A stretch of 64,000 nt of DNA. Source: Vibrio sp. DW001. Its GTDB lineage: Bacteria; Pseudomonadota; Gammaproteobacteria; Enterobacterales; Vibrionaceae. Below, piece by piece: positions 1 to 19,336 of this stretch (its first letter is position 1; each line of letters starts with the position of its first letter). Both the position numbers and the translations under genes were made by a program. The stretch is taken from contig NZ_CP091976.1 in the NCBI RefSeq assembly GCF_029016285.1, forward strand, positions 868,001-932,000. Reading direction: 5' to 3'. Under the pieces are notes generated by a model. The model was not told the DNA's origin, did no database searches, and saw only the letters and a list, made by a program, of their open reading frames with translations.

Positions 1-340
1 CTGATGTTAACGGTCCCCCTGTCACCTTGCTACCATTGTCGGCCTGATAAGTGCCATCTGATCTCGTCGTAAAGCCCGAGTAAATCGACAGATAACTTCT
101 TGTGGAGAACAGTCCGGATAAACTCACGTCCAACTGATAGGTTTGAATAGCCTTGTAACTGAACCCATCGGGAATCGAGAGGTCTTGCATATCTCGAAGC
201 ACGACGAGTTCGATATCTTGGGTTGAACCCGTGTCTGATTCAGCAGGCGTATCTGCTGAGGGAGATGAACCACTATCTGACCCACCACCACCGCCGCAAG
301 CTTGAAGTAAAACCAATGACATTATCCATAATTTTCTCAT
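1..340 (-). CDS. putative lipoprotein, C-terminus beyond window edge
   Basis: The reading frame opens at an ATG at 340-338, preceded by GGAG, and stays open to the left edge, so only about 113 N-terminal residues are seen. The N-terminus (MRKLWIMSLVLLQACGGGGG) is a lipoprotein signal: a positive start, a hydrophobic core, an LQAC lipobox, then a glycine/serine/acid-rich linker typical of surface-tethered lipoproteins. The rest shows no family I recognise. It starts 10 bases after the stop of the LruC-domain gene and is almost certainly co-transcribed with it. By context it may be a partner of that secreted protein at the cell surface. That is inference. Confidence 0.75.
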   Translation of the reverse strand, partial: MRKLWIMSLVLLQACGGGGGSDSGSSPSADTPAESDTGSTQDIELVVLRDMQDLSIPDGFSYKAIQTYQLDVSLSGLFSTRSYLSIYSGFTTRSDGTYQADNGSKVTGGPLTS

Positions 341-350
341 AACGCTGCTC

Positions 351-2462
351 CTATGGTTGATAGATTTTGTTTGTGACGGCTTTGTCTGATATAAACCAAT
401 CCTTTTCCAACGTACCGCCACTTTCGGCGTAGGTCGCAAATGCTGGGTAGGCGTTAACCAGATCAACCCTCTCTAATGGCCATTGCCATTCATCAGTAAT
501 CAATAATGCCCATGGAAGATTGTCTGCGGTCTTAAAATAGATCGCATTGCTGGCATCACTGGCATCAATACCCAGCCCCCACATTGAATCACCATCAAAC
601 TTTTCGGTTGGGCTTTGGTCTGGTAGATGAACCTCCCATTTTCTGCCCGGGTGGAGAGGAAGGCCTTCTCCGTGATAGTATCCTGGCGTTGAGAAGATAA
701 AGGGGTCATAGGGCATACTTGCTATGTCATCAACCGAAATGCCATCGACGATTGAGATATGCAATTCAAATGTGAATGATTCATTTTCTAGACAAGTGGA
801 GAGGGTTCTGAAATAGCGACAGTCTGTCCCTTTTTCTTTGTTTAGCTCATTTGAGACGATAAAGATGGCTTCATTGCTATCAAGCTCAAGGCCACTGTTT
901 GTCTGTTGACGGTCATTGTGTATTTGACGAGTAAGGGAGGTATCAATGTTGTCGCGGCTTAATCTAGGTAATCTGATTGCAAATCCGTTGTGATAATCCG
1001 CACCAAAAGCAGCGAGTCTCCCTTTGATAAAGGATTTTTTAATCTCTCCATCTTTAAGAACTTCAGTGATCCTATAATGAATGACGACATCGTTCATATC
1101 GTAATCGGCGGTATAGGGCCAGTTATCTTCGTAGGCTAACGTGGCGTATCCAGTCTCATTTGGGAAGTGCCGAACGGTGATCCCTTCTGAGATAACCATG
1201 ATCTGATGATCTTCAACTTCACCAGAGGTTGAACCGCCCATTGGGGATAGGTTAGTTTGTTGGCTGAATCGAAATCGGCTCCATGTTAACCCTTCAACCG
1301 CGTCTATATCGGCAATAAAGAAGAGTGTATTGTTTCCTTTTTCTAGCACGGTATCGGAGAACACTTGTTCTCCATCATCAGTGAAATCACCATCTTGGTT
1401 CCAGTCAATCCATGCGGAAAGATAACCTTGGCTCGATGCTTCTACTGTTATTATCGCGTCTAGTCCCGCCTCTATAGCGGTAACAAAGCCAATACCATCT
1501 TCATCATTGATACCAACCGAATTATCACTCAGTGGTGCAACCAACCCATCTTGTTCGCCATCTGGCGCCTGAGAGCCCATCCAAGTCAGGTTGTCGAGCT
1601 GATGTCTCGGCCCATTGTTCGCGAGTGTGGTTTGGTAAGTATCTGGTGCATCGCCAAAATCGATCGTTGAATCTTCATCGATGACCGGGGCATTAGCACA
1701 GCGAGCACCATCGTTCTGATTCGACATTGGACCATCTGCAAATTTTACTGCTGTCACTAAGCCGTTATTAATATTGGCTTGATTCGATAGATCTATTCGG
1801 TAGATATAGCCGTCTTGGTTTCGTGCCACATAGTAGTACCCGTTCACATCAAAGTAGCCAGCACCAAACGTGCCGGTTTGACCAGTGTCTCCAATATAGG
1901 TGCTTTCACCTGAGCTGGTATCAAACTGATAAAGGTAGCCGGAATTGTTATCTATGCCATAGAGCTGGTCGTTGCCTGGATGAAAGGCAAAATCAGTCAG
2001 GTTTTGACTGGCAATGTTCGTGATCTGTTCCACTTCCAGTGTGGCGTCACTGTCTATGTCTAGAGGGGATAGATCGATCTTAAATAGCCCTTTACCTTGG
2101 CGATAAAGATAATAGTGCTTATTGAAGACATCACCGACATAAAAGGTATAGTCACTCGGTAAACCAGAGCTATTTACGGTCTCAGCTTGGAAATTTTTGC
2201 CCAAGCGGACAATCTCTTTACGTGTCGTGTCGTAGCCATAAATATAACGCCCTTCAAAATCAAATCCGACGCTATTAATGTTGCTACTGACCCCCGTGTC
2301 TCCTTGTAAAAGCGAGGTCTGGCCGGTAACAAGATTTACGCCATAGACTTGAACGGGTTTCGACTGGAATAGATACGCTCTGCTAGGGCAGGTGTCGAAT
2401 GGTAGTGCATAGACACCTTGTGACGAGATGACAAGGAGGAAAAGTACAAGTAGTTTATTCAT
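351..2462 (-). CDS. secreted GEVED/LruC-domain protein
   Basis: This 703-residue protein has a Sec signal peptide (MNKLLVLFLLVISSQGVYA, then LPFDTC). Residues about 25-250 are a repetitive beta-propeller-like region (YGYDTT, YGIDNN, YYYVARN) resembling DUF6923. An FGDAPDTY linker precedes a GEVED domain (about 300-430) with a calcium-like acidic loop (DWNQDGDFTDDGE) and the diagnostic SGEVEDHQ. The C-terminal third (about 450-700) is a LruC domain, recognised by DYDMNDVVIHY and by closing segments that include WGLGIDASDASNAIYF. LruC proteins are exported surface proteins of unknown function found in Leptospira, Vibrio, Shewanella and others. The gene follows the extra syp GT on the same strand but has its own sigma54-type promoter and upstream palindrome, like the syp promoters. 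A role as an extracellular matrix or adhesion protein produced with the polysaccharide is inference. Confidence 0.8.
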   Translation of the reverse strand: MNKLLVLFLLVISSQGVYALPFDTCPSRAYLFQSKPVQVYGVNLVTGQTSLLQGDTGVSSNINSVGFDFEGRYIYGYDTTRKEIVRLGKNFQAETVNSSGLPSDYTFYVGDVFNKHYYLYRQGKGLFKIDLSPLDIDSDATLEVEQITNIASQNLTDFAFHPGNDQLYGIDNNSGYLYQFDTSSGESTYIGDTGQTGTFGAGYFDVNGYYYVARNQDGYIYRIDLSNQANINNGLVTAVKFADGPMSNQNDGARCANAPVIDEDSTIDFGDAPDTYQTTLANNGPRHQLDNLTWMGSQAPDGEQDGLVAPLSDNSVGINDEDGIGFVTAIEAGLDAIITVEASSQGYLSAWIDWNQDGDFTDDGEQVFSDTVLEKGNNTLFFIADIDAVEGLTWSRFRFSQQTNLSPMGGSTSGEVEDHQIMVISEGITVRHFPNETGYATLAYEDNWPYTADYDMNDVVIHYRITEVLKDGEIKKSFIKGRLAAFGADYHNGFAIRLPRLSRDNIDTSLTRQIHNDRQQTNSGLELDSNEAIFIVSNELNKEKGTDCRYFRTLSTCLENESFTFELHISIVDGISVDDIASMPYDPFIFSTPGYYHGEGLPLHPGRKWEVHLPDQSPTEKFDGDSMWGLGIDASDASNAIYFKTADNLPWALLITDEWQWPLERVDLVNAYPAFATYAESGGTLEKDWFISDKAVTNKIYQP

Positions 2463-2500
2463 TGAAACGTCCCTTAATAATGAAATACTATTAAAGGTGT

Positions 2501-2516
2501 ATCAATCTCTGTGCCA
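2501..2516 (-). promoter_or_regulatory. sigma54-type promoter for the LruC operon
   Basis: On the minus strand this reads TGGCACAGAGATTGAT. The -24 box is perfect (TGGCAC) and the -12 box is TTGAT against the usual TTGCW. Transcription would start about 25-30 bases before the ATG at 2462, which has an AAGGGA ribosome-binding site. The element lies 75 bp, centre to centre, downstream of the palindrome at 2576-2590. Confidence 0.6.
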
Positions 2517-2550
2517 TTTTTATGTTATTGATAAATAAAGATAAAATATT

Positions 2551-3711
2551 TTATCTGTTTACTTGTCTAAATTGAATCTCATTTTGAGAATGGTTTATCA
2601 AGGCGAAATATTCCAGCTCCATTTCCTTCACTTGTCTCTCTAAGGAAAATTGACTGAGAATTTTTTTGTGAGCATTACTTGCTAGCCAGCGTTGTAATGG
2701 CTTTGACTGAATGATTCTAAGCATGGCGTTGGGCAAGGCATATTTGTTCTTAGGATTATATAGGATGGCGGATTGATTGTGACTGACCACTTCTGGTATC
2801 CCTCCTATATTTGGTGCCACAATGGGTAGCGAAGAAAACCCCGCCTCTGCAATAACAAGACCAAATGCTTCGCTGCGTGCACCACTAACGAAGGCGTCGC
2901 AACCTCCTTTTAACCAACCGACGGGGTTTTCCTGTTCACTTATAAGGTGAACATTATTGTCTAATTTTAGCGAGCTTATACGATCGAGTAGTGGTTGTTT
3001 CTCACGGCCTTCACCAATCACAAGCAGATGCACATTACGGGATTGGCAATGAATGGCTTGCATCGCATCGATAAGTTTATCTATCCCTTTCCTTGAAATG
3101 AGTGAGCCAATGGTGACAAATAGAAAGCTGTCTTTTGGCAGATTTAATCTCTCTTTGACATTGATTATTGGAACATGAGCAAGCGAAGAAAAATCAATAC
3201 CATTATGTATCACTTTGATCTTTTCGTTGGGGTAGCCATCCCCATTAAGCTTAAAACTGATAGCCTTACTTACGACAACGGTTTTTTGGGAAAAATGCAG
3301 ACCTAAACTGACTCTATCCCTTAACGGGTAATCGCAGTGCAATAGAGTGAGCATAGGCACGTTACACCGTCGGCAAGCCAGTGACATCCACTGAACAGGA
3401 CCACCACTATTGGCGTGTACAATGTCTACTCTGTTTTCACGAATAAGACGTAGTCCTTTTCGAATGAGTCTGAACCAGTTAACAAAAGAAAGTTTTGGTT
3501 TAACCCATCCAAATAGTAGCGAGAAGGTATCAAGTTGGCTTGGAACCGAGAGCTTGTTTAGTGCCCGGTGGAGTGAGGGGTTATTTGTCCAAACGATCGG
3601 CTGAAATTTCTGACGGTCAATGTGAACAATAAGGTTGAGTAGTGATTGCTCACTGCCTCTAATCCAGTCATCACCATAGTGAACAAAAAGAATCGTCTTT
3701 CGCTCTGTCAT
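2551..3711 (-). CDS. glycosyltransferase family 4 (extra gene after sypR)
   Basis: This 386-residue GT-B enzyme has an N-terminal acceptor-domain start (TILFVHYGDDWIRGSEQSLL), a domain junction IKVIHNGIDF, a sugar-nucleotide domain with TIGSLISRKGIDKLI, and the EX7E region SEAFGLVIAEAGFSSLPIVA (glutamates about residues 282 and 290). It should transfer a sugar from a nucleotide donor to a lipid-linked intermediate on the cytoplasmic face of the inner membrane. Its ATG is immediately next to the sypR stop, so it is the last gene of the sypP transcription unit. The V. fischeri locus as I recall it ends at sypR, so this is an added enzyme that could change the repeat unit. Donor and linkage cannot be read from sequence. 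Confidence 0.85.
   Translation of the reverse strand: MTERKTILFVHYGDDWIRGSEQSLLNLIVHIDRQKFQPIVWTNNPSLHRALNKLSVPSQLDTFSLLFGWVKPKLSFVNWFRLIRKGLRLIRENRVDIVHANSGGPVQWMSLACRRCNVPMLTLLHCDYPLRDRVSLGLHFSQKTVVVSKAISFKLNGDGYPNEKIKVIHNGIDFSSLAHVPIINVKERLNLPKDSFLFVTIGSLISRKGIDKLIDAMQAIHCQSRNVHLLVIGEGREKQPLLDRISSLKLDNNVHLISEQENPVGWLKGGCDAFVSGARSEAFGLVIAEAGFSSLPIVAPNIGGIPEVVSHNQSAILYNPKNKYALPNAMLRIIQSKPLQRWLASNAHKKILSQFSLERQVKEMELEYFALINHSQNEIQFRQVNR
2576..2590. promoter_or_regulatory. SypG-type enhancer palindrome (LruC operon)
   Basis: The plus strand reads ATCTCATTTTGAGAA. On the minus strand this is TTCTCAAAATGAGAT, which matches the palindrome TTCTCA-N3-TGAGAA at 14 of 15 positions. It lies inside the last codons of the GT gene that ends at 2551. 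The same motif stands upstream of the four syp promoters in this window. Confidence 0.6.
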
Positions 3712-4344
3712 TTAGCGGCCTCGTCCATTGAATACCACCGCGATAGTCTTAAGCAGAATAGTAGAATCTATCACCACCCACTGATATACCGAGGTTATTG
3801 CAAGGGCATAGCTATGGTCAAAACCGACCTTTCTTCTTACGTCATCAATGCAGGTATCATAGCCTTGGTTTACCTGAGCAAGCCCCGTAATTCCGGGTAG
3901 TACGCCATAGGTTCGTTCTACAAAGAAAGGAATGGCTTGATTCAATTTTTGGTAGAAGCTAGGTCGCTCAGGCCGTGGTCCAATAAGTGACATCTCCCCC
4001 TTTAATACATTAATGAGCTGAGGGATTTCATCTATTCGTGTTTTACGCATAAATCGGCCAACAGGCGTAATACGCGGATCGTTGTCAACGGCCCAAACAG
4101 CGCCAGAACTTGCTTCTGCGTTTTGATACATTGTCCTAAACTTAATGATCTCAAAAAACGTGATGGTTTCTGACGTGCATTTACCAACGCGCAGTTGCTT
4201 ATAAAATATTGGCCCTTTGGATGTCCCCTTAATGAACAGTGCAACGACAGGAAGCAGTGGCAACAACAGTAACAAAGTGTAGGTTGCGATCAGGACATCA
4301 AAGATGCGTTTGCCGATGTAAATTTCTCGATGGTGATTGGTCAT
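3712..4344 (-). CDS. sypR: initiating sugar-phosphate transferase (SypR-like)
   Basis: This 210-residue bacterial sugar transferase (PF02397) has one N-terminal hydrophobic re-entrant helix (DVLIATYTLLLLLPLLPVVA), then GPIFYKQLRVGK, IIKFRTM and the signature block RIDEIPQLINVLKGEMSLIG followed by PRPERP. The length fits the short monotopic PglC-like class with no multi-spanning N-terminal domain. It would load the first sugar phosphate onto undecaprenyl phosphate and start repeat-unit assembly. It lies 17 bases downstream of sypQ and is followed at once by the extra GT. Position and family match SypR; the donor sugar is unknown. Confidence 0.85.
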   Translation of the reverse strand: MTNHHREIYIGKRIFDVLIATYTLLLLLPLLPVVALFIKGTSKGPIFYKQLRVGKCTSETITFFEIIKFRTMYQNAEASSGAVWAVDNDPRITPVGRFMRKTRIDEIPQLINVLKGEMSLIGPRPERPSFYQKLNQAIPFFVERTYGVLPGITGLAQVNQGYDTCIDDVRRKVGFDHSYALAITSVYQWVVIDSTILLKTIAVVFNGRGR

Positions 4345-4361
4345 GGTTTTGCCCTCGAATC

Positions 4362-5594
4362 TTAAAAGTTGAAATGTCTCTTCTTGGCATGTTCTTGAGG
4401 CGATGGTTTTCTGGGAGATATCTTATTGGGAGACCGTTTGCTGGTGAATAAATAAGTGAGCCCACCAACGAGGTTCGCCAAATGACCGGACAGTAGGTAA
4501 GTTAATATGGATAACACTTTACTCTTCCTTAAAAAAGGTAGGCAGCAACAGATTAATCCGACGCTGTACGCGGTAATCTGGATGACGAGAGCGAAAAGAA
4601 ATAAAGGATGTTCAATGAGAAGTAGTGAACATATAAGGCAAAGCAACATCAGGTATGGCGTCAGTAACCTTAGCCCTTTTCCAGAGAAGAATGTGAAGGC
4701 AGTGCTCGCGTATTTTGGGTTGAACAAATGGATTAAACGAAGGACCTGTTGCATGTTACCTGCCGAGATCCTTAGTCGTCGTGCAAAGTCGTCTTTGTGA
4801 TTGGTTTCTTCTAGCTCTATCGCGTTAATTCTCGGTTCGAAGACAATCGAATACCCTTGCTCAACGATTTTCATCGGTAGGACAAAATCATCATTGATGG
4901 TGTCCAGATCAAGGGGTTGAAAAAGTGATTGTCGAAATAGATAGAATGCACCGTGGCAACCAATAGTCGCACCTAAACAGGCCTCGCCATTTTTGATTTT
5001 AGCTTGATATTCCCAGTAGCTTGTTTCCTCAAGATTGTCAGATAACGTCATGCAGTAATTAGGATTGACCACACCAACACGTTTGTCATTAAACGAATGG
5101 GATGCTATCTGCAGCGAATCTATAGATAGGAGTGCAGATACATCACTTAGTGCCACAATATCGGATGCGGCTTTAGGCACCAATTCATTAATGACGGCGA
5201 TTTTTCCCCGATTAGTTGCAAAATTGATGACTTCAAAATGGACATTTTCACATATGGCTTCTTGTATCGTCAGTTGTGCCAGTTGAGCGGTGTTGTCTGT
5301 ACATCCATCGCAGGCGATGATGACATTTAGTTTTTGTCGTGGGTAATCTAAACTGGCGATGTTACGTATTTTGCCCTGAATCCATTGAGCTTCATTGTAA
5401 GCAGGAATGATAAGCGTTACCGTTGGTAAATCTCCGTCACTTGCACTTTTTTTAAACTTCCGTGATGAAATAGAAATCGGTTCTAGTGGCCTATTATTTT
5501 TGTACCAGCCTAGCAGCATAGGATAACCAACATGGCTATAGACAATTAAACAAGCGCTTACCACGCTAGATACGATCAACAGTAGTTCCATCAT
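4362..5594 (-). CDS. sypQ: membrane glycosyltransferase family 2 (SypQ-like)
   Basis: This 410-residue protein has an N-terminal membrane segment (residues about 3-20), then a GT2 domain: TLIIPAYNEAQWIQGKIRNI, ACDGCTDNT for the nucleotide-binding aspartate, ALSDVSALLS for the metal-binding motif region, and DDFVLPMKIVEQGY. Two or three C-terminal membrane spans (about 305-380) follow. This is the N-acetylglucosaminyltransferase/processive-GT architecture. It overlaps sypP by four bases (ATGA), showing translational coupling. GT2 membrane enzymes here usually add a sugar to the lipid-linked oligosaccharide. Specificity is not evident. Confidence 0.85.
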   Translation of the reverse strand: MMELLLIVSSVVSACLIVYSHVGYPMLLGWYKNNRPLEPISISSRKFKKSASDGDLPTVTLIIPAYNEAQWIQGKIRNIASLDYPRQKLNVIIACDGCTDNTAQLAQLTIQEAICENVHFEVINFATNRGKIAVINELVPKAASDIVALSDVSALLSIDSLQIASHSFNDKRVGVVNPNYCMTLSDNLEETSYWEYQAKIKNGEACLGATIGCHGAFYLFRQSLFQPLDLDTINDDFVLPMKIVEQGYSIVFEPRINAIELEETNHKDDFARRLRISAGNMQQVLRLIHLFNPKYASTAFTFFSGKGLRLLTPYLMLLCLICSLLLIEHPLFLFALVIQITAYSVGLICCCLPFLRKSKVLSILTYLLSGHLANLVGGLTYLFTSKRSPNKISPRKPSPQEHAKKRHFNF

Positions 5595-6697
5595 GCCAAT
5601 TCTCCCATTGATAGATCATCGTAAGCTTTAACCATCTGATGAATATTGTTGTTTGTGACCACAAATTCTCGCGGGAGGTGCGTGGATTGATTTGCCAACA
5701 TTCTTGTTAATGAATGAGAAAGGTCAGCAACATCGTTTGATTTTGCCAATACCCCTGTTTTTGGGCATAAGACTTCTGCTGAGGCACCAACATTAGTGAC
5801 GACGGCGGGAATATTACACGCCTGCGCTTCCAGCGGTGAGAGAGGTAAACCCTCGAACCTTGAAGGTAAACAAAACAGATCTAATGATTGATAAAATCGC
5901 GGCATATTTTCGACTAAACCGAGAAACAACACTCGCTCTTTTAGGTGCAATTTTTCGACTAAATTTTCAAGGCTTTTCCGTTGAGACCCATCACCAGCAA
6001 TAACCAATATCACCTCTTTCTCTAACAGAGCGAGTGCTTTAATTGCTAAGTCATGGCCTTTTACCTGTTCTAAGCGACCAGCCGTTCCAATTATTTTTTT
6101 ATCGTTAGGTAATTTGAACAGTTCTCTCGCCAGTTGCTTTGAACCGGGTTTGAATTTTTTGCAGTCAACGCCATTTTTTATGACGACCGAGTTGGATCCA
6201 GAAAAACAAGCAGTAAGTTTCTCTTTGACATGAGAGGCGTCGGCAACCAGTGTTGGTTTTGCGGCCTTAAGAACCATGCCTTGAATGCGTCGGTGTTTTT
6301 TGTCTTCTAGGTGCCAAGCGTCATGTTCGGTATGAATTCTAATTGTTACACCAGCCATGCGTGCCGCGTATCCAGCGTAGAGCAAAGGACCAATATGATG
6401 GGTGTGGACCACATCGGGTTTCACCGCTCTAAAAGCCTTAATTAGGGTAAGAATTAGACCTAAATGAACGCCCGGTTTTTTTTCTAAAAAAACCAACTGG
6501 TTTTGATACGCTTCAAGTCTAGGCCAGTTTTTAAGTGATTCTTCTTTCGTGCCTTCCAGACTGACAATCAATACTTGGTCATCTGGGTTGGCAAAACTCA
6601 GCAGATCTAGGGTTAGGCTTTCGAGTCCTCCAGGGGCGAGGTGTTGAACCACATGGATAACTTTTTTTCCGTGTCTGCGTGTTGAGGTAATATCCAT
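5591..6697 (-). CDS. sypP: glycosyltransferase family 4 (SypP-like)
   Basis: This 368-residue GT-B protein starts VIHVVQHLAPGGLESLTLDL, the usual GT4 opening with the GG loop. It continues with HTHHIGPLLYAG, VIKNGVDCKKFKPGSK, GTAGRLEQVKGHDLAIKAL and PSRFEGLPLSPLEAQACNIP (EX7E). AAGGA stands before the ATG. It is the first gene of the sypPQR-GT unit, with a sigma54 element at 6784-6799 and an upstream palindrome at 6858-6872. Expected role: cytoplasmic addition of one sugar to the growing undecaprenyl-linked repeat. Donor unknown. Confidence 0.85.
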   Translation of the reverse strand: MDITSTRRHGKKVIHVVQHLAPGGLESLTLDLLSFANPDDQVLIVSLEGTKEESLKNWPRLEAYQNQLVFLEKKPGVHLGLILTLIKAFRAVKPDVVHTHHIGPLLYAGYAARMAGVTIRIHTEHDAWHLEDKKHRRIQGMVLKAAKPTLVADASHVKEKLTACFSGSNSVVIKNGVDCKKFKPGSKQLARELFKLPNDKKIIGTAGRLEQVKGHDLAIKALALLEKEVILVIAGDGSQRKSLENLVEKLHLKERVLFLGLVENMPRFYQSLDLFCLPSRFEGLPLSPLEAQACNIPAVVTNVGASAEVLCPKTGVLAKSNDVADLSHSLTRMLANQSTHLPREFVVTNNNIHQMVKAYDDLSMGELA

Positions 6698-6743
6698 AAC
6701 GCTATCCTTCTCTATAAATGTGGGATTTCTCTGTGTTCAATAG

Positions 6744-6777
6744 ACTATTTGTTTGAATAGGCTATTTGTTTGAATAG
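6744..6777. repeat. 17-bp tandem repeat in the sypP leader
   Basis: Two tandem copies of CTATTTGTTTGAATAG plus one base lie between the sypP start codon and its -12 element. They are within the predicted untranslated leader. Function unknown; possibly a replication-slippage duplication. Confidence 0.7.
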
Positions 6778-6783
6778 ATAAAT

Positions 6784-6799
6784 TGCAGGTAATGTGCCA
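6784..6799 (-). promoter_or_regulatory. sigma54 promoter for sypP
   Basis: The minus strand reads TGGCACATTACCTGCA, with GG and GC exactly ten bases apart, as sigma54 -24/-12 promoters require. The predicted start site is about 75 bases before the sypP ATG. The upstream palindrome centre is 74 bp away. Confidence 0.75.
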
Positions 6800-6857
6800 A
6801 GTATTATTTCATTTAATAACAGTTAGTTATGGTTATTCCTTTACAGGCGGGTCGGTT

Positions 6858-6872
6858 TTCTCAATATGAGAA
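6858..6872. promoter_or_regulatory. SypG-type enhancer palindrome (sypP)
   Basis: A perfect palindrome with spacer, TTCTCAATATGAGAA, in the gap just after the sypO stop codon. It fits the SypG-binding half TTCTCA-N3-TG that I recall for V. fischeri, and the identical 15-mer occurs upstream of sypA (35054-35068). Confidence 0.75.
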
Positions 6873-6877
6873 CGAAA

Positions 6878-8305
6878 TTAATAACTGACATTAGGTATGC
6901 TACTCAATACTGGTACACCAGTGATAGAAATCAGTTCATCCTGTCGACGAATAGTGGTATCGAAGAGCTCTAGCAGAGTGGCCATTCCGGCACCAAGAGC
7001 GATACCTGCAAATAGTCCAGAGAGTACATATACCCAGCTAGGGAAATTAGATGGCTGGCTAGGGGTATAGGGTAAATCTATAATCTTAACGCGTTTGTTT
7101 TGTTCAAAATTACCAAGTGAGCCGGTTAGTTGCGCCATTTCAAATCGTTCGACAAGCTCATCGTAGAGTCGTCTTTTATTGGTGACACTGCGCTGTAGGT
7201 TAAATAAGATCTTTGACTGGTCGCCAAATTGGTTTGTCTCTTTGTCTAAAACAGATATCATCTGCTTCAAACTTTTGCTCTCTTCTTGGAGTGATTCGTA
7301 CTGGCTTCTAATCAACTGTAAACTCTGTAGTTGAGTGATGAGTAAAGGCTGCATGTTGCCTAATTGAGACAGTTGAATGCTACTTGCAATATCCCATAAC
7401 TGTTCACTAGAAAGATTGGATGAATTTACGTTGACCATTGTTTCTCGTTCGCTCTCCAATCGAGAAAGTTCTCGATTTTTTGCTTGTACAGCACTGTGGT
7501 TTTCAGTGTAGTTTGCTCTCAAAAGGGTGAGTTGGCTGCGAGCTTCGATAATTTGTTCTTCAATTTTTCCTACAACAGGGTTGGTTCGAGATAGTTGCTG
7601 ATCAAGGCTACCCAGACTTTTTTCAACCCCTGCAAGGGTCGCTTTTTTCTCGGATAAGGTTTGTTTTAATGCGGCAAGTCTAGACAGCTTTTCGTTTTGC
7701 CTTTCAGGCGACACATTTGGGTTTATGTTTTGGAAATCCGCGAGGGCTTGTTCGGCATTATTGAGCTCTTCTAATCGCTTGTTTATGTGGAAAGTAAGAA
7801 ACTCTGCGGAATCTTTGATAGACGATCTTTCGGGCGCAAGGACTTGGTCGATAAAGTGATCACTTATGGATTCTAGTAGCGCTTTCATTCCCTGAGGCGC
7901 TGAAGCGGTGAGCTTTATTTGTACAAATTCTTTACCTAGCAAATGAACAGAAATCCTATCCGATAAGCTTCTGATCACTTTTTCTGACTCTTTGGTGCTC
8001 ATTGTGGCATCAATGAGGCCAAGATCCAGAGCGACAGATTGCAAAATGTGTCGGCTTTTAAGTAGTGTACTTAGCGCATTTATTCTGTCTTTGAAACCAG
8101 TTGAGACTGCGATATCTTCAAGGAATGGGTTCATTTTTGCCGTTTCTTGAATAAGCATGCTGGTGTGTGAATGGTATTGTGCAGGTGCCAGTTTACTTAC
8201 GATATAGCCTGCAAAAGGCATAATAAGAACAGGCATCAACAGTATATATCGGCGTCTCCATGCCCCTTGTAACAAAATAAGCAACTTTATCTTTAGTTCA
8301 ATCAT
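6878..8305 (-). CDS. sypO: polysaccharide chain-length determinant (SypO-like, Wzz/GumC)
   Basis: The chosen start is the ATG at 8305, which has GGAG eight bases upstream and overlaps the sypN stop as ATGA. An upstream in-frame ATG at 8362 would add 19 unlikely residues. The product has about 475 residues: a first membrane span (about 20-38), a large periplasmic region with long coiled coils (about 160-400), a PCP-typical proline-rich exit (LPYTPSQPSNFPS) and a second span (about 425-445). It has no kinase domain, so the tyrosine-kinase-like partner is the separate SypD. It should control polymer length and link polymerase to outer-membrane export. Confidence 0.85.
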   Translation of the reverse strand: MIELKIKLLILLQGAWRRRYILLMPVLIMPFAGYIVSKLAPAQYHSHTSMLIQETAKMNPFLEDIAVSTGFKDRINALSTLLKSRHILQSVALDLGLIDATMSTKESEKVIRSLSDRISVHLLGKEFVQIKLTASAPQGMKALLESISDHFIDQVLAPERSSIKDSAEFLTFHINKRLEELNNAEQALADFQNINPNVSPERQNEKLSRLAALKQTLSEKKATLAGVEKSLGSLDQQLSRTNPVVGKIEEQIIEARSQLTLLRANYTENHSAVQAKNRELSRLESERETMVNVNSSNLSSEQLWDIASSIQLSQLGNMQPLLITQLQSLQLIRSQYESLQEESKSLKQMISVLDKETNQFGDQSKILFNLQRSVTNKRRLYDELVERFEMAQLTGSLGNFEQNKRVKIIDLPYTPSQPSNFPSWVYVLSGLFAGIALGAGMATLLELFDTTIRRQDELISITGVPVLSSIPNVSY

Positions 8306-9417
8306 AATAGCTCCAATAGCCAATTGAGAAATTGGCTGCGTTCCGTCCAACTTTGATGACAAATGGCGTCTTTTGATATGCGGGCTGACCTTGCTGCCTG
8401 ATAGAGTTTTTGACGAAAATCGTGATGAGAATGGGCAACGTGAAGATGCGGTTTATAGGGCGCAAGTGCAGGGAAATCGACACTAACAATGGGTTGGCCC
8501 GAAGCCATGTATTCCATCAATTTTAAAGGATTACATGCCCTTATCTGCGGGTTATCAATAAAGGGAAGAATGCTGACGTCCCAGTGCTGGCTGTAACTAG
8601 GTAGATCGTGGTGTGAACGACTCCCTAGATAGAAAATATTGTCTAAATTAGGCAGCTTTCGCTGTTCTAACTCGTTAGGGCCAATAAAAACAAAATTCCA
8701 ATTTGGCATCGATTCAGCGAGAAACTGGATAAGAGGGTAGTCTATCCAGTTTGATAAACTGCCATAGAAACCCGCAATAGGCTTACCTAAAGGAAGATCG
8801 TTCGCTCTTGGCTGCGGCTTTGTAAATAGCTCTGTATCAACGCCATGAGGCAGTAAGTGGGTCTTACACGCAGGGAATTTGTGTCTAAGGTTTTCGCTTG
8901 CGGTCAGAATCAGGTCTGCTTTATCGACGAGTCTTTTTTCATGGTTGCTAACTGTGTGATGGTCTACACCAGCAAGTGCATTAAAGTCATCACCACAATA
9001 GTAAACAACAGCAGATTCGCCCAAGTTGCCGCAAAGATCCGCCGTGGTCGGCAGAGATGACCAAAGGATAGGTTGGTTAAGCTTCGCTCTATCGATGATG
9101 GGTTTGAGCTGATTTATCATCATATCTCTTGCGATATATCGGGCGAAAGTAGACTTAGGGGCAGGAATGGTCAGTAAGTCGACCTCTATTATGTTGTGAT
9201 GCTGAACCTTTGGTTTCGCGTAATGCTGTGCACGATTTTTTTTGGGTAGCAGTTTTGCCCACGCTCGTTTTAGATCCTTGCTATTCCAATGGGGTTGTCT
9301 TAGCCCAATAGAATTAACCCACACAACCTTTCTATCTTCAGCCAATCGGGTGATCAGATGTTGTGTACTAGACGGCAAACCACCTAGGTCCTCACCAAAT
9401 ACGATAAGATCATGCAT
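8302..9417 (-). CDS. sypN: glycosyltransferase, GT4-like (SypN-like)
   Basis: This 371-residue protein begins DLIVFGEDLGGLPSSTQHL and carries VVYYCGDDFNALAGV in the N-terminal domain, LLPHGVDTELF at the domain junction, PIAGFYGSLSNWIDYPLI and FNP-type SILPFIDNPQIRACNPLKLM in the donor-binding half. This is a GT-B fold with a less standard EX7E than its neighbours. Orthologous position between sypM and sypO supports SypN. It is translationally coupled to sypO. Confidence 0.8.
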   Translation of the reverse strand: MHDLIVFGEDLGGLPSSTQHLITRLAEDRKVVWVNSIGLRQPHWNSKDLKRAWAKLLPKKNRAQHYAKPKVQHHNIIEVDLLTIPAPKSTFARYIARDMMINQLKPIIDRAKLNQPILWSSLPTTADLCGNLGESAVVYYCGDDFNALAGVDHHTVSNHEKRLVDKADLILTASENLRHKFPACKTHLLPHGVDTELFTKPQPRANDLPLGKPIAGFYGSLSNWIDYPLIQFLAESMPNWNFVFIGPNELEQRKLPNLDNIFYLGSRSHHDLPSYSQHWDVSILPFIDNPQIRACNPLKLMEYMASGQPIVSVDFPALAPYKPHLHVAHSHHDFRQKLYQAARSARISKDAICHQSWTERSQFLNWLLELL

Positions 9418-9452
9418 AACTCACCTCTTGCTCGATTATATGAAAGCCTGTG

Positions 9453-10163
9453 CTATCCAATAGCACGGATAATTTTTGCTGGATTGCCTGCGGCGAGTAC
9501 AAAGCAAGGCAGGCTTTTAGTCACAACACTTCCAGTGGCGACGATGGTGCCTTTGCCAATAGTGACGCCTTTGTTTACGGTAACATTTGAACCTAGCCAT
9601 ACGTCATCTTCTAGCGTAATTTCGCCTATTTGACTGCTTAGATCTGGGCCTCCAGTCGCCCGATTTATCGCATCAAATGGATGGCCAGAATAACCAAATA
9701 GAGAGGACCTTCCGGCAATCCTTACATTATCTCCAATAACGACTTTAGTACCGACGGCGATAGTGGTCTGCCAACCAATACCAACGTTGTTACCGATAGT
9801 GAGGCTAGGGTTATGGCTAGTAGAGCGGCCACTAAACGTGGTTTGTCCAGAAATACGACAGTTTTCGCCTACGTCGATGGATAGAGGACCGGAGATAAAT
9901 GGAATACCAGTGTAAAGGTAAAGATTTTTGCCACAGGAATGTACTCGTCCTTTAAATGCGGGTGTATAAAGAAAAATTCGAGTCACGTTACTTAAAAAAT
10001 TTCTGATCAGAATGAGCAAGAAGTAGAGTGCTTTATTGAGAATCTTAGGCGTAGGTATGTCGAAGGTTCGTATGCTTTTTAACAAGCTGAACAGTTTTTG
10101 ATGGTGTGGGTTCGGGCTCTGCTTCAACCAATTTTTTAGATTGTTGGGGGAAAGTGTCATCAT
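9453..10163 (-). CDS. sypM: left-handed beta-helix O-acyltransferase (SypM-like)
   Basis: This 236-residue protein has an amphipathic N-terminal third (one hydrophobic stretch about 45-62). Hexapeptide repeats then fill about residues 85-230 (VGENCRISG, IGNNVGIGW, IGDNVRIAG, LEDDVWLGSNVTVNKGVTIG), ending VATGSVVTKSLP and AGNPAKIIR, the classic acetyltransferase tail. It is likely to acetylate a sugar of the repeat unit or polymer in the cytoplasm. ATGs occur at 10163 and 10160; neither has a strong Shine-Dalgarno sequence. It has its own sigma54-like promoter, as expected for a sypM operon (sypM-N-O). Confidence 0.85.
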   Translation of the reverse strand: MMTLSPNNLKNWLKQSPNPHHQKLFSLLKSIRTFDIPTPKILNKALYFLLILIRNFLSNVTRIFLYTPAFKGRVHSCGKNLYLYTGIPFISGPLSIDVGENCRISGQTTFSGRSTSHNPSLTIGNNVGIGWQTTIAVGTKVVIGDNVRIAGRSSLFGYSGHPFDAINRATGGPDLSSQIGEITLEDDVWLGSNVTVNKGVTIGKGTIVATGSVVTKSLPCFVLAAGNPAKIIRAIG

Positions 10164-10198
10164 GGTAGAGTCTCTTTTTGATTTCTTTCAATAAGACC

Positions 10199-10214
10199 TT
10201 CACAGAATGTGCCA
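10199..10214 (-). promoter_or_regulatory. sigma54-like promoter for sypM
   Basis: The minus strand reads TGGCACATTCTGTGAA. The -24 box is perfect; the -12 box is GTGAA, weaker than consensus. It lies 36 bases upstream of the sypM ATG and 65 bp from the upstream motif. Confidence 0.5.
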
Positions 10215-10253
10215 TTTAATAAGTTGTAAAAAATCAATTAGTTATATATTTTC

Positions 10254-11636
10254 TTATTTTGAATTCTCATTTTGACTAGCAATTTGAGCGACACAGATGG
10301 TGAGTGCAGCAAGAATGTAGATTGGCCAATTGAATCCTTGAGTTAAAAAAGTACCAGAAATCACAGTACCAATTAGACCTGCATAAACGGCATTTGCCAT
10401 GGTCTCTACACTTGCAGGGTAAGGGTGCCTTTTAACTTTGTTTACGGTATTTTTTGCTGTTCTGATTAAAGACACGATGAAACTGATGAATATAAATAAA
10501 CCTAACATTCCTGTTTCCGCTAAGACACCGAACCAGGTGCTGTGTACGGCATGGTTTAATCCGTCCCAATGAGAGCTGAAATAGAAATAATTTGAGTAGA
10601 AATTATTGAGGCCAACACCCGTTAAGGGGTTTTCTAATGACATGCGAAATGCGGCTTGCCATGCATATAAGCGTCCCATTGCAGATGCATCTACGCCTGC
10701 TTCAGCTGCGCCACCAGAGGCTCTTTCCGAGATCCCGGCAAAGAAGTAAAGAAATAGCGTTGCGGCAATACCAAGGAAAAATAACAAGGTCTTTGAACGG
10801 ATTTTACCAAATGCCAATACGGAGAAAATGGCTAGCGTCCCTAATAGGCCACCTCGACTTTGCGTTGCAATAATAGAGTAGATAAGTATGGCGCTAATGA
10901 CTATTGCAAAAACTCGAAGCATCAATGGATTGTTTTTGGTGATAAAGGTCGATATTGAGAATGCGAGTGGGAACATTAAAACGAGCGCCAGATCATTCGG
11001 GTCACCGAGCATTGAACCGATATCACGACCAATAGTGACACGGCTGCCCTCCACAAGCCCAATGCCATTTATTGAGTTATAAATGGCAACACTGCCTACC
11101 AGTAATCCAGATAAATTGATTAGCAGCGTAATATAAGAGAGGTATTTGGCCTGATTGACTATCCAGATGATAGCTAACGTCATGACTATGATTTTCCAAT
11201 AGATGTTCTTAAAGTACTCAATGGCAATAGGTCGGTTTGATGCAAGCGCGATGCCGATCAATATGAGAACCCAAAACGCCACCAACCAAGAAAGAGAGGG
11301 ATGCCAATAGGGAGTGAGTGTCTTGCTAATGACACTGTGCCATGCAAGTGCAAGCAGAGCACCTGCCGATAATAGCAATGGAATCTTCAATGGATAAAGT
11401 ACGGGGATAACCTCATGAATGCGAAAAAACGAGAAGATAACAAAGAGAAAAACCAAGCCAAACATATGGTTAATAAGAAAAAGTATTCCTAGTGGTAAAG
11501 CGCATAAGATGAGGACGACAACGGGGTTGGGGGCGATGATCCAGATAAGTGATATAACGGCGCAACACAGAGTAACAAGTGTTATGCCTGCGTAACGACG
11601 GTCGTATAGGATGTGAGTTTTCGGTGAGAGCTTCAT
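10254..11636 (-). CDS. sypL: O-antigen polymerase/ligase family (SypL-like)
   Basis: This 460-residue polytopic protein has about 11-12 membrane segments. The Wzy_C signature region is in the largest periplasmic loop (about residues 325-375: NPLTGVGLNNFYSNY, then LNHAVHSTWFGVLAETGMLG), with conserved arginines and the HS(T)W motif. It should join lipid-linked repeats or ligate polymer on the periplasmic face. It overlaps sypK by four bases. Its last codons contain the SypG-type motif of the sypM promoter. Confidence 0.85.
   Translation of the reverse strand: MKLSPKTHILYDRRYAGITLVTLCCAVISLIWIIAPNPVVVLILCALPLGILFLINHMFGLVFLFVIFSFFRIHEVIPVLYPLKIPLLLSAGALLALAWHSVISKTLTPYWHPSLSWLVAFWVLILIGIALASNRPIAIEYFKNIYWKIIVMTLAIIWIVNQAKYLSYITLLINLSGLLVGSVAIYNSINGIGLVEGSRVTIGRDIGSMLGDPNDLALVLMFPLAFSISTFITKNNPLMLRVFAIVISAILIYSIIATQSRGGLLGTLAIFSVLAFGKIRSKTLLFFLGIAATLFLYFFAGISERASGGAAEAGVDASAMGRLYAWQAAFRMSLENPLTGVGLNNFYSNYFYFSSHWDGLNHAVHSTWFGVLAETGMLGLFIFISFIVSLIRTAKNTVNKVKRHPYPASVETMANAVYAGLIGTVISGTFLTQGFNWPIYILAALTICVAQIASQNENSK
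10264..10278. promoter_or_regulatory. SypG-type enhancer motif (sypM)
   Basis: Reads TTCTCATTTTGACTA: the left half TTCTCA-N3-TGA is intact and the right half is degenerate. It lies inside the 3' end of sypL. Support comes from its position, 65 bp from the sigma54-like element, and from the parallel with the other four modules. Confidence 0.45.
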
Positions 11637-13069
11637 AAGCGACCGAGCTCTTTGCTATGGTTCAATTTTGGTAGAGAAAGGGAGGGGGTAAGGCCAGAGA
11701 TAATAGCTGTCGCTAAAATCACTAATGGCGCGGCGATGGTTAAGAACATTTGGGCGGTTAAATCGTTCAAATAATAGGAACCTAGAATAAACAGTGCGGT
11801 AAGGGAAAAAATGAATAGGATAGGACGAGCCTGGTAAGGAATGAAATAGTATTTTTGACTTAGAGCGAAGATCAGAATCAGTTTAAGCAATTGAGCAATA
11901 TTGAGGGCTAATATTATTCCCCAAACACCTGACTCTCTGAGCAGCCAAGCAACAGAAAGGCCTACGGTTGAAGCGACGATGTTGATGGCGAGCAGTGTGC
12001 CAGTTTTACGACGGTAAAGGAGACCAATATTGCCTATTTCGCTCAGCTCTTTCATCAGTGCAATAGAGAGTGTTCCCAGCACATACTTGGTTGATTCTGA
12101 ATAACCCTCAGGAAGCGCTAAGGTGATAAAAACAGGCGCTAGATAAGAGACCGACGTGGCGAGCATAGCGACCCAGACAAAACCGTATTGGGACAATTGC
12201 GCCGTTGATTGGCGACCAAAGCTCTCAATGTGTTGGAACCGTTTGGGCATCCACCATAGGCCGTAAGGTTGAACCAGAATACACATTGCTAACGAGAACT
12301 TCAGTGCGATGGCGTACACCGCAACATCCGCCAGCGATCCTGAATAGGCAAGTATCCATCTATCGGCACCATTCAAGGCGAAACCAATACTACTTGCAAG
12401 AGCCAATGGTAGGCAATAGCGTGCAAAAATCTTTGTTTTCTCAGCGCTAGGAAAGGTGAAAGACCATCTATTGAGCCAATGAAGTACGCCGAGTTGAATC
12501 GCATGTGAAATAACAGAGGAGAGTAAAATTCCTGAGACACCAGCATCTAATCGTATCGCAATAATAACCAAAATTAGTTGTAGAATTGCGCTTGCGGCGG
12601 TGACAGTGACAAAGCACTTTGCTCTATCTTGCATACGTAACCACGCCAACGATATTCCCAGAGCGCCCTCGATAGACAAGCCAAAGGCTAATATTGAAAA
12701 TTCAGTGTGCGTAACCAGAAGCGTAAGTTGAGTAAGATAATAACCGGAGAATAAAAGCAATATAGGAAGAGTGAGTAACGCAATGAGTGCCGTCAGCGTA
12801 TAGATTTGTGCCGCGACTTTTTTCTTGTTCGACGGGCTATCCTCTACACCTGAATAACGATAAAGGGCTTCATGCATGGATAGATTGATGAACAAGCCGA
12901 GAAATGCCGCGATACTGGCGAGAATTTCAAGTTTTCCCACCTCTTCAATAGACAAGTTAGTGGCAATAAATGGCAACATAAACAAGGATAAACCTTTCAT
13001 CAGAAATAGACCTATTCCGTAATAGAATATATTCCTGAAGCCTGAAGGCACTGATAACCGGATCATCAC
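11633..13069 (-). CDS. sypK: polysaccharide flippase, Wzx/MATE-like (SypK-like)
   Basis: This 478-residue protein has 12-14 predicted membrane helices. It opens GIGLFLMKGLSLFMLPFIA, typical of the oligosaccharide flippase (RfbX/PST) family, has charged loops such as GADRWILAYSG about residue 235, and no soluble domain. It would move undecaprenyl-linked repeat units across the inner membrane. It lies one base from the upstream GT gene and overlaps sypL, so all are one transcript. Confidence 0.85.
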   Translation of the reverse strand: MMIRLSVPSGFRNIFYYGIGLFLMKGLSLFMLPFIATNLSIEEVGKLEILASIAAFLGLFINLSMHEALYRYSGVEDSPSNKKKVAAQIYTLTALIALLTLPILLLFSGYYLTQLTLLVTHTEFSILAFGLSIEGALGISLAWLRMQDRAKCFVTVTAASAILQLILVIIAIRLDAGVSGILLSSVISHAIQLGVLHWLNRWSFTFPSAEKTKIFARYCLPLALASSIGFALNGADRWILAYSGSLADVAVYAIALKFSLAMCILVQPYGLWWMPKRFQHIESFGRQSTAQLSQYGFVWVAMLATSVSYLAPVFITLALPEGYSESTKYVLGTLSIALMKELSEIGNIGLLYRRKTGTLLAINIVASTVGLSVAWLLRESGVWGIILALNIAQLLKLILIFALSQKYYFIPYQARPILFIFSLTALFILGSYYLNDLTAQMFLTIAAPLVILATAIISGLTPSLSLPKLNHSKELGRL

Positions 13070-13070
13070 G

Positions 13071-14276
13071 TTAACCCTCTTTCGCGATTTGTTTGGGCGA
13101 TTGCGCTATGGCCCTAGCGATCCTTCTATAGCATTGTTCTGCGTGATAATTCTCAGCTTTCTTTTTTGCTTTTTGACCGATAGCTGGAATCAAGAAAGGA
13201 GAAAAAATAAGTGTTTGGATAGAGAGAAAGAGAGCTTCAGAATCATTGGGTTTGTATTTGATACAATCAACCTTATGAGTTAATACAATATCCCAGTAAG
13301 CACCATCATTGGGAATGACAACGCACATACCGGCGGCCATCGCTTCTAGTATCGATAAGCCAAAGGGTTCATTTTGGCTAGTAGAAACAAATATATTGCT
13401 TCGTGCTCTTATTTCATCCAGATTTCTTGGGTTTTGATGCCATGAAAAAAGTGGGATTTGAACAGGTGCTTGTGTAGTCGAGATCTGCGTACGTTCCGGC
13501 TTTATATAACAAATGTCTGTAGGTACAGGGGTTGTATTTCCTAAGCGTTTTCCAGTTTCAATCAGCGTATCTAGCCCCTTCCATTTTAGTAGAGATGCGG
13601 CCCAAAAAAGGCGCGGTTCACCATAGGTACACGAAGTCGGCCATTGATTTGAACTAATACCATTGTTAAAAAAAAGGTAGTGTGGAGAAGTGAGGGCAAA
13701 CTGTGTAAATTCCTGTGCGGAATGAGCGTGCACTCTCCAACTAAAATAATGGCTAAACGCTAACTGTATTGACGGGTGGCAGGATTCAAGCGCAAAGATG
13801 ATGTCTGCTTTTGTTAAGCAATGGCCAATGGATCGAGATTTTGCAACAGGGCCATGGATAAGCTGAATCAATGGAAACCGCCAGATTACCTTCACGAGAT
13901 AGAGCGACATATCAACGCCTGGACCTGACATGCCTACCACTGAGTCTACGGGGGGGATACGAAGTAAAGTGATGAAGATCATGATAGAAAAATAGAATTG
14001 CTTGACCCAAAAAAGCCCCCCGTGACTGGCGGTGAAAAGAAAGGGAGGCATTCGAAGGTGAATGGTCTTTATTTGATGGGTACTTGACGAAACCTCACTC
14101 TTCCAGCAAGTCGGGCTAACGGTAAGGACAGTGAATGAGACGGACTCGTTATTACACTGGTTGAGCGCTTCTTGCGTGGCAAGCTTTGACCCCCCGAAGA
14201 ACGGTATGGGATCAAAAATTAAGCAATGATTTTTTGATTTCTCTTGATGCGTATTCTGTTCCATACCGACGTCCAT
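13071..14276 (-). CDS. glycosyltransferase family 4 (SypI/SypJ position)
   Basis: This 401-residue GT-B protein has an N-terminal GG loop (PFFGGSKLATQEAL), VVGMSGPGVDMSLYL, a short junction RLFWAASLLKWKGLDTLIET and the EX7E-type segment NEPFGLSILEAMAAGMCVVI followed by PNDGA. Two starts are possible: the ATG at 14276, close to the predicted transcription start, and the ATG at 14264 with GGACG before it; the second may be the real one. It is the first gene of the unit that continues through sypK and sypL, with a near-consensus sigma54 promoter. The V. fischeri locus has two GTs here (SypI and SypJ); only one complete gene is present, so I leave the symbol open. Confidence 0.85.
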   Translation of the reverse strand: MDVGMEQNTHQEKSKNHCLIFDPIPFFGGSKLATQEALNQCNNESVSFTVLTVSPTCWKSEVSSSTHQIKTIHLRMPPFLFTASHGGLFWVKQFYFSIMIFITLLRIPPVDSVVGMSGPGVDMSLYLVKVIWRFPLIQLIHGPVAKSRSIGHCLTKADIIFALESCHPSIQLAFSHYFSWRVHAHSAQEFTQFALTSPHYLFFNNGISSNQWPTSCTYGEPRLFWAASLLKWKGLDTLIETGKRLGNTTPVPTDICYIKPERTQISTTQAPVQIPLFSWHQNPRNLDEIRARSNIFVSTSQNEPFGLSILEAMAAGMCVVIPNDGAYWDIVLTHKVDCIKYKPNDSEALFLSIQTLIFSPFLIPAIGQKAKKKAENYHAEQCYRRIARAIAQSPKQIAKEG

Positions 14277-14299: not shown

Positions 14300-14315
14300 A
14301 GCAATCTCAGTGCCA
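14300..14315 (-). promoter_or_regulatory. sigma54 promoter for the GT-sypK-sypL unit
   Basis: The minus strand reads TGGCACTGAGATTGCT, a full consensus -24/-12 element (TGGCAC-N5-TTGCT). It is the best sigma54 site in the window. Confidence 0.85.
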
Positions 14316-14386: not shown

Positions 14387-14401
14387 TTCTCAATTTGAGA
14401 A
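14387..14401. promoter_or_regulatory. SypG-type enhancer palindrome (GT-sypK-sypL)
   Basis: Reads TTCTCAATTTGAGAA, a perfect inverted repeat with a 3-base spacer, centred 87 bp upstream of the sigma54 element at 14300-14315. It abuts the GT gene remnant that starts at 14401. Confidence 0.75.
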
Positions 14402-14793: not shown

Positions 14794-15681
14794 TTACGCT
14801 TTTTTCCTAGAAAGAAATCGTTTAAAGAAGGCACCTACCGCTATAAGAGCAAATATTCCAAACTTCTTCAAAAACAGAAAGGCGACCGCAATAAAACCTG
14901 TTTTTGCTATTACTTTGCCAGCCACGAGTGCACCAAGCCCATAGGCCGCTACTGTATCTAGATCTGGATCAAAGTCGCTATATTTAGAGCCTTGGTCGAA
15001 CTCTGCTAATGCGAGGACAGATTCAATACTTGAGTCTATTTCAGGTTTCTGTTCCATGTCTGCAATAAAATTGAGTACCAGAACGCCTTTTCGTCCTAGG
15101 ATACGGATATTGTAGTTAAGCGTATTTATCTCTTGCTCGCCAAATCGAATTTCCTTGGCCCAGTGTAGCTTTTTTCCGTTGGCATCGTAGTACGGAGGGG
15201 AGGCCCAACCTACTAGCTCTACCGGGTCATAGCCTTCTTTTACTCTTGCCTTACTGGAGGATAGGGTGTCTTCTTTCATCTGTTGTAGAAGATCGCTATA
15301 GTTAATTTCGTCGGCATCTTCGTCAGAAACGTACCCGTCTTCTTCGTACTTGATCGTGACTGCCCATGATTCACTATCAAACGGTGACATCTGAGCAGGG
15401 AACAGCATTCCAAGTATAGGTTGATTGGGTGGGTTCCCCCAAACGTCGACAATTATCTTTTTGGAATCTTCGGCATTTAAGTAATAGAAACTGTCTGGAA
15501 CGTTCAATACTGCACCAGTTCCTTCTATTTTTATGGTTCCTGTTTGTCTGTCTAATGACTCCCAGATGTCCCTTGCCCAAGTGATATATTCCTCTTCTTC
15601 TGACTTAGCACCTTCCTCGGTTGCAAAAGAAAAAAATGATAGGCTGAATAACATCAACCCCAAAATGAATCTTGGTCTCAT
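14794..15681 (-). CDS. DUF2167-family membrane-anchored protein
   Basis: This 295-residue protein has an N-terminal signal peptide (FILGLMLFSLSFFSFATEEG). A soluble periplasmic region (about 25-250) carries the DUF2167 pattern: GTGAVLNVPDSFYYLNAED, WGNPP, SWAVTIKYEEDGYVSDEDAD, VGWASPPYYDANGKKLHWAK and LGRKGVLVLNFIADM. One or two C-terminal helices (about 255-290) and a basic tail follow. Members are exported or membrane proteins of unknown function in Proteobacteria. AAGGGAG precedes the ATG. It stands alone between the syp half-locus and the intron remnant; no functional link is evident. Confidence 0.8.
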   Translation of the reverse strand: MRPRFILGLMLFSLSFFSFATEEGAKSEEEEYITWARDIWESLDRQTGTIKIEGTGAVLNVPDSFYYLNAEDSKKIIVDVWGNPPNQPILGMLFPAQMSPFDSESWAVTIKYEEDGYVSDEDADEINYSDLLQQMKEDTLSSSKARVKEGYDPVELVGWASPPYYDANGKKLHWAKEIRFGEQEINTLNYNIRILGRKGVLVLNFIADMEQKPEIDSSIESVLALAEFDQGSKYSDFDPDLDTVAAYGLGALVAGKVIAKTGFIAVAFLFLKKFGIFALIAVGAFFKRFLSRKKA

Positions 15682-16412: not shown

Positions 16413-16453
16413 GTCGGGTGGACGACACTTGTTACCAAGTGCCGTCTCCCTAA

Positions 16454-16487
16454 GAACCCAGCGTGCAACGTTCACTGCACTAGGCTC
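16454..16487 (-). ncRNA. group II intron domain V
   Basis: The minus strand folds into the standard 34-nt domain V hairpin: a GAGCC 5' strand and GGGTTC 3' strand with the catalytic AGTGC-like segment, a bulge and a small terminal loop. It lies about 40 nt before the predicted 3' splice site. Confidence 0.75.
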
Positions 16488-16523
16488 AAGCCTCCACAAA
16501 GGCATCAAATGATACCCAGCAAC

Positions 16524-18535: not shown

Positions 18536-18845
18536 TCTGAAATAACTCCAAAAACTTATAATACAGTACTCATTAGTAGCGAATAGTTGAAAGGCAGTTA
18601 TCACCTGATCACATGAATATCCAACTTAACATCATTTTCATAAAAGCAAACATTTCGATTAGAGTGAATGGAGTAAATTGACCATTAATTAGAAGGAAAC
18701 TCGTTGATTTTTTGTGTAACTGTAGTTCCTCAAAGTATTAGTTTTTCGTAACTTTCACTTTGTTAGTGACTGAACTCACTTCACTCGATGTCCAACGTTG
18801 ACAGTGCAAATCAGAATAATTGTATTATCAATTTATTACTAAAAA

Positions 18846-19289: not shown

Positions 19290-19336
19290 ATAACCTCCGA
19301 AATATCTTGTTGCTTTTAAAGTTACATGAATATAAG

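Follow-up and report, generated by a model that had tools for sequence, protein, structure and literature searches.

One end of the 64,000-nucleotide stretch of Vibrio sp. DW001 DNA analyzed here (NCBI RefSeq assembly GCF_029016285.1, contig NZ_CP091976.1, positions 868,001 to 932,000; hereafter the window) carries a two-gene unit that encodes a protein with an LruC domain and a lipoprotein, next to a syp polysaccharide cluster. The locus raises the question of what controls this unit and what its products do. We consider it very probable that these two genes are the counterpart, in this Vibrio, of the bmp-bal genes of Vibrio fischeri, activated by SypG and sigma54 and specifying a matrix protein and a lipoprotein that are made together with the Syp polysaccharide. 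The features at issue are as follows.

1-340 (C-terminal part beyond the window end), minus strand: lipoprotein gene, 157 amino acids in the genome
351-2462, minus strand: LruC gene, 703 amino acids, first gene of the two-gene unit
2501-2516, minus strand: sigma54 (-24/-12) element TGGCACAGAGATTGAT, one mismatch to TGGCACN5TTGCW
2576-2590, minus strand: SypG-type enhancer palindrome TTCTCAAAATGAGAT, no mismatch to the published TTCTCANNNTGMDWN
2551-3711, minus strand: GT4 glycosyltransferase gene, sypI-like, after sypR and directly upstream of the LruC unit

A SypG-type promoter module at the LruC unit

The original prediction held that the unit has its own promoter module, and this was confirmed: the palindrome is an exact match to the SypG site (reported in the excerpted text of PMC10162802), lies upstream of the sigma54 element with a gap of 59 base pairs (bp), and is itself embedded in the 3' end of the glycosyltransferase gene next upstream. 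Modules of the same kind precede syp genes in the window.

6784-6799 (sigma54) and 6858-6872 (palindrome), minus strand: sypP promoter module, gap 58 bp, exact palindrome
10199-10214 (sigma54) and 10264-10278 (palindrome), minus strand: sypM promoter module, gap 49 bp, weak palindrome (two mismatches)
14300-14315 (sigma54) and 14387-14401 (palindrome), minus strand: sypJ promoter module, gap 71 bp, exact palindrome
34969-34984 (sigma54) and 35054-35068 (palindrome), minus strand: sypA promoter module, gap 69 bp, exact palindrome

The further claim that the LruC unit shares the spacing of the syp promoters holds for sypP (58 bp) but not for sypM, sypJ, or sypA (49, 71, and 69 bp). Each of the four exact palindromes in the window (2576, 6858, 14387, and 35054) has, 58 to 71 bp downstream of it on the minus strand, a sigma54-like site with zero to two mismatches. 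Taken alone and with up to two mismatches, the palindrome occurs at a level near chance (17 found, 15.0 expected), and the sigma54 site was found 46 times against 32.5 expected, with 2 of 100 shuffles reaching that count. Scored jointly, the two elements occur together three times in the 5.46-megabase genome at a gap of 40 to 70 bp, or four times at 45 to 75 bp, whereas reversed-pattern controls gave none; all three joint sites at 40 to 70 bp are inside the window, which also holds a site at 71 bp that would fit as the fourth. The same reversed-pattern control gave 4 matches over 148 genomes of the genus.

Conservation of the module

To score other LruC copies, the sigma54 element and the palindrome were assessed jointly upstream of LruC, with at most two mismatches counted as a pass. 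The close set, assembled from 30 loci plus 40 further loci, comprised 70 LruC copies from 66 genomes, all with an identity of 46% or more and counting that of the window, with some genes broken; 50 of these passed (0, 1, 2, 3, 4, 5, and 8 mismatches in 24, 12, 14, 8, 8, 3, and 1 copies, respectively), and dinucleotide shuffles of the set (n = 1,400) gave no pass, one score of three mismatches, and ten of four. In a distant set with about 40% identity, all 19 copies passed, 15 with one mismatch and 4 with two, at a gap of 39 to 40 bp. Among 80 named LruC loci, which overlap in part with the genomes of these two sets, 49 passed (23, 11, 15, 12, 2, 9, 5, 1, and 2 loci with zero to eight mismatches), and 947 other gene starts in the same loci gave no pass, with 2 at three mismatches and 10 at four.

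The distinct gaps fall at 37 to 40, 47 to 50, 57 to 62, 74 to 76, 91 to 92, and 102 bp, and cluster at a period of 10.5 bp (R = 0.54; P = 0.0008; best of five periods tried). This spacing keeps step with the turns of the DNA helix, as it should if the activator has to be turned toward the polymerase, and we infer that SypG binds these sites and activates transcription from them.

Two side observations concern the module itself. More distant LruC paralogues (L187 in G031:C1, L178, and L179) also bear a SypG-like module, and at G138:C3:907363-909469 stop codons break the LruC gene into three matched pieces while the module is intact (one mismatch).

Co-occurrence and linkage with syp

Across the 148 genomes, 84 carry both LruC and sypO, 1 (G072) carries LruC alone, 14 carry sypO alone, and 49 carry neither (Fisher P = 3.6e-25, kinship ignored). 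These counts take sypO as present in 98 of 109 matching genomes, 11 with weak or very short matches being left out (G014, G040, G045, G092, G099, G101, G103, G112, G117, G142, and G144), and LruC as present in 85 of 89; G038, G051, G071, and G094, which have distant paralogues only or a partial match, were left out and thereby fall under sypO alone. Kinship was addressed with an rpoB tree of 100 of the 148 genomes (46 of the 49 with neither, 11 of the 14 with syp only, the 1 with LruC only, and 42 of the 84 with both, hand-picked). In 18 independent tree pairs that differ in syp, LruC changed the same way in 12.7, the opposite way in 0.5, and was unchanged in 4.8 on average (median P = 0.0018); in 15 independent pairs that differ in LruC, syp followed in 12.4 and opposed in 0.3 on average (median P = 0.0005). 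Among 197 genomes at the family level, 124 had LruC (E value up to 1e-50) and 140 had sypO.

Physical linkage is a property of part of the genomes. Of 88 LruC copies in sypO genomes, 17 lie within 60 kilobases (kb) of sypO, 64 on another contig, and 7 farther away on the same contig; in the named set of 80, the 10-kb flanks of 13 loci, belonging to Vibrio (ten), Oleispira (two), and Psychromonas (one), contain at least two syp-type genes. The sequence condition set in the original prediction for its refutation, a lack of conservation in relatives, did not come about: the motif is conserved, and the neighborhood is kept in part of the genomes. The module persists where LruC and syp sit on different chromosomes: in G087, syp is on C1 and LruC on C2, with a module at each. 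In a tally of the sites listed for the 148 genomes, with overlapping double matches of one site taken once, at least 142 module sites were counted, 102 of them no more than 45 kb from sypO; a further 19 stand immediately ahead of LruC, and the other 21 are in neither position.

As a separate observation, the symbionts classed as Candidatus Photodesmus (L076 and L080; G124 and G026), with genomes of about 1 megabase, have kept sypO and the LruC-lipoprotein pair, and their palindrome has decayed.

Architecture of the LruC protein and its lipoprotein partner

The LruC protein has the following domains.

Residues 34-256: DUF6923 (PF21959), a predicted beta-propeller, 81.1 bits against a gathering cutoff of 27
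Residues 347-421: GEVED (PF20009), 55.4 bits against a gathering cutoff of 24.4
Residues 440-690: LruC_dom TIGR04456 (NCBIfam), 268.1 bits against a curated cutoff of 36
Residues 473-690: DUF4842 (Pfam)

The N terminus is signal-peptide-like, and an acidic calcium-like loop, DWNQDGDFTDDGE, with the pattern DxNxDGDxxDDGE and several invariant positions, sits in GEVED; the signal peptide, like the lipobox of the lipoprotein, was read directly from the sequence. The window's genome (two contigs) has a single LruC gene, and a protein of Vibrio sp. F74 is 95% identical to its product. The Leptospira LruC protein and the putative lipoprotein of PDB entry 3oqq are the nearest described relatives of the C-terminal part: 3oqq matches residues 607 to 695 (E value, 1.5e-10), and the C-terminal LruC domain scores over the DUF4842 cutoff. 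The window's protein differs from these in also having a propeller, GEVED, and a signal peptide, and in being accompanied by a lipoprotein of its own gene.

The lipoprotein bears a CGGGGG lipobox and combines a flexible linker with a single beta-sandwich domain, and the lipoproteins gave no confident Pfam family match. The products are as originally described, a signal-peptide protein with GEVED, LruC, and an acidic loop and a lipoprotein with a flexible linker. Their pairing is steady: a lipoprotein frame comes directly after LruC at every one of 30 loci (that of the window among them), single-sequence BLAST placed the lipoprotein behind LruC in 66 of the 80 named loci (1 of the other 14 is cut by a contig end), and all 69 of the strongest lipoprotein matches in the genus lie behind LruC on the same strand. 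Variations on this layout were also seen. In the group L181 to L187 of distant LruC paralogues, the lipoprotein gene precedes LruC rather than following it, and tandem LruC gene pairs occur at L081, L086, and L089 (Enterovibrio) and at L008 (G008).

The roles suggested by this architecture and pairing can be set out as a model. Phosphorylated SypG would bind the TTCTCA palindrome and, via looping, activate sigma54 polymerase at 2501-2516, which would couple production of the matrix protein and the lipoprotein to that of the Syp polysaccharide. The LruC protein would leave the cell and cross-link or bind the polysaccharide through its propeller and its calcium-loop and LruC beta-domains, and the outer membrane lipoprotein, on its flexible linker, would capture the LruC protein or tether the matrix to the cell.

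It is unlikely that the pair acts instead in Syp synthesis or export, for example as a periplasmic or outer membrane assembly factor: the pair's LruC is missing from 14 syp genomes, the combination of propeller, GEVED, and LruC appears adhesin-like rather than enzyme-like, and Bmp is reported to be a matrix protein in the excerpted text of PMC10804989.

Relation to Bmp and Bal of V. fischeri

Bmp, the biofilm maturation (matrix) proteins, and Bal reportedly go back to work by Ray, Driks, and Visick in 2015. According to the excerpts of a 2023 paper (PMC10804989), V. fischeri has three SypG-regulated matrix proteins (BmpA, BmpB, and BmpC) and three Bal lipoproteins. Like these, the window's unit has a SypG-type enhancer and a sigma54 promoter and pairs a secreted protein with a lipoprotein. 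The Aliivibrio fischeri orthologue (P0112) is 58% identical to the window's LruC protein and, with its lipoprotein gene, lies beside sypA, transcribed away from the sypA-like frame and sypB; this genome (G195) has two LruC genes, one of them broken into two frames. Three LruC-lipoprotein pairs (L195, L196, and L201) are present in the Aliivibrio genome G177, matching the three Bmp and three Bal proteins. Each of nine syp-linked Aliivibrio copies (G195 and L200 to L207) has a sigma54 site near its start with zero or one mismatch and a TTCTCA-type site (CTCTCA in one) 168 to 214 bp before it; sites in the remaining Aliivibrio LruC classes are weaker. The window differs in that its genome has a single LruC gene, compared with three bmp genes in V. 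fischeri, and in that LruC follows sypR and the sypI-like gene rather than lying beside sypA as in A. fischeri. From the A. fischeri pair beside sypA, the published Bmp and Bal sets, and the three pairs of G177, we infer that Bmp corresponds to the LruC protein and Bal to the lipoprotein.

On this basis, the original suggestion that the unit is the most likely undescribed system in the window is probably wrong, while its proposal that the pair is co-regulated with syp and acts in the matrix or at the surface is supported by motif conservation, co-occurrence, and linkage in part of the genomes. A syp-co-regulated matrix system apart from Bmp-Bal, and undescribed, is quite improbable; it would fit with the accessible parts of the literature on LruC in Vibrio biofilm and syp, which gave no link between LruC and Bmp, but V. 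fischeri already has SypG-run matrix proteins and lipoproteins, three of each (excerpts of PMC10804989), and A. fischeri carries one of its two LruC genes with a lipoprotein gene beside sypA. What is new here is the LruC, GEVED, and propeller architecture, the wide co-regulation indicated by sites, and the co-occurrence with syp.

RbmC and Bap1 of Vibrio cholerae are likewise secreted beta-propeller matrix proteins co-regulated with an exopolysaccharide; as judged by description, their domains and regulators differ from those of the LruC protein.

Several findings weigh against the identification with SypG-controlled bmp-bal. As 14 of the 98 syp genomes have no LruC of this kind, LruC is not essential to syp. 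Three or more mismatches were found in 20 of the 70 close copies and in all 13 named loci outside Vibrionales. The copy of Vibrio sp. qd031 (L052 in G016) is syp-linked and that of Vibrio ulleungensis (L042) lies beside syp, yet neither has a module; transcription of LruC at these two loci may start at a syp promoter upstream. The Aliivibrio enhancer distance exceeds the module rule, so these loci fail it, and that enhancer may serve sypA too; no such site was found on reading three Aliivibrio copies labeled g8. In the accessible parts of the literature on LruC, Vibrio biofilm, and syp, we found no statement that Bmp carries an LruC domain. Finally, the window has two sypG frames where its close relative G022 has a single 512-residue frame (L191); the split reflects an error in the assembly or else a regulator that is broken in this strain, and because of it the strain, as assembled, may not express the SypG regulon.

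That a sigma54 activator other than SypG reads the module is very unlikely: LuxO and SypG sites overlap at V. fischeri qrr1, but LuxO does not activate syp promoters (both from excerpts of PMC10162802), the same palindrome stands at the window's syp promoters, and LruC presence tracks syp.

More tentatively, the identification with bmp-bal might be extended: the propeller-GEVED-LruC protein and its lipoprotein could be a general protein partner of Syp-type polysaccharides across Vibrionaceae, under SypG even from another chromosome, with the LruC domain as a polysaccharide- or matrix-binding module and a dispersed SypG regulon that includes LruC paralogues and a 29-residue basic peptide. The findings tie LruC, a family without an assigned function, to a studied biofilm system, point to a matrix operon that stayed under the sites of the polysaccharide regulator despite a move to another chromosome, and provide matrix protein candidates that can be tested, both in many Vibrio species that carry syp-type loci and in the Photodesmus symbionts with their reduced genomes.

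The syp cluster in the window

The window holds syp genes, SypF- and SypG-type regulators, and sigma54/SypG promoters, as follows.

3712-14276, minus strand: syp biosynthesis genes R (3712-4344), Q, P, O, N, M, L, K, and J
25134-34929, minus strand: block of the other syp genes
25134-26225, minus strand: sypH
26206-27703, minus strand: sypG in two overlapping frames, a receiver domain frame and an AAA+/helix-turn-helix frame
27764-30022, minus strand: sypF
30035-30847, minus strand: gene for a PhnD-type periplasmic binding protein, between sypD and sypF
30921 (sypD), 31610 (sypC), and 33730-34566 (sypB), minus strand
34603-34929, minus strand: sypA-like small frame, resembling the A. fischeri frame beside LruC

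The letters of genes R to J are presumed from their families and the gene order. The LruC unit does lie directly after the biosynthesis genes, following sypR and the GT4 gene, which we call sypI-like since, of the genes in the window, it best matches (40.7%) the one that lies between sypH and sypJ in A. fischeri. The syp order is altered by the move of this gene, by the PhnD-like gene, and by about 10 kb of unrelated genes (14794-24848) that part the cluster between sypJ and sypH and include DUF2167, reverse transcriptase, rhomboid, Rrf2, MFS, flavin oxidoreductase, PEP mutase, and Ada genes. The insert is probably common to G022, in which the distance from sypG to sypO is nearly equal. In A. 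fischeri, the interval between sypD and sypF holds, in place of the PhnD-like gene, one with a receiver-like match, presumably sypE by its position in the gene order; the PhnD-like protein is possibly a sensory partner of SypF.

A possible further SypG target

At three loci far from syp (L188, L189, and L190, in G129, G105, and G115), a SypG-type palindrome and a sigma54 site precede a conserved basic frame of 29 residues, followed by a terminator-like hairpin. The frame reads MIPNSSKRKPNKSSKKASKKVRKIPLSFT in two loci and has two changes in the third, with base changes that are mostly silent by eye; it is possible, judging from these sequences, that it encodes a new SypG-controlled small protein. 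Similar sites are listed at G017:C1:1895579, G072:C1:1704314, and G139:C1:1633568.

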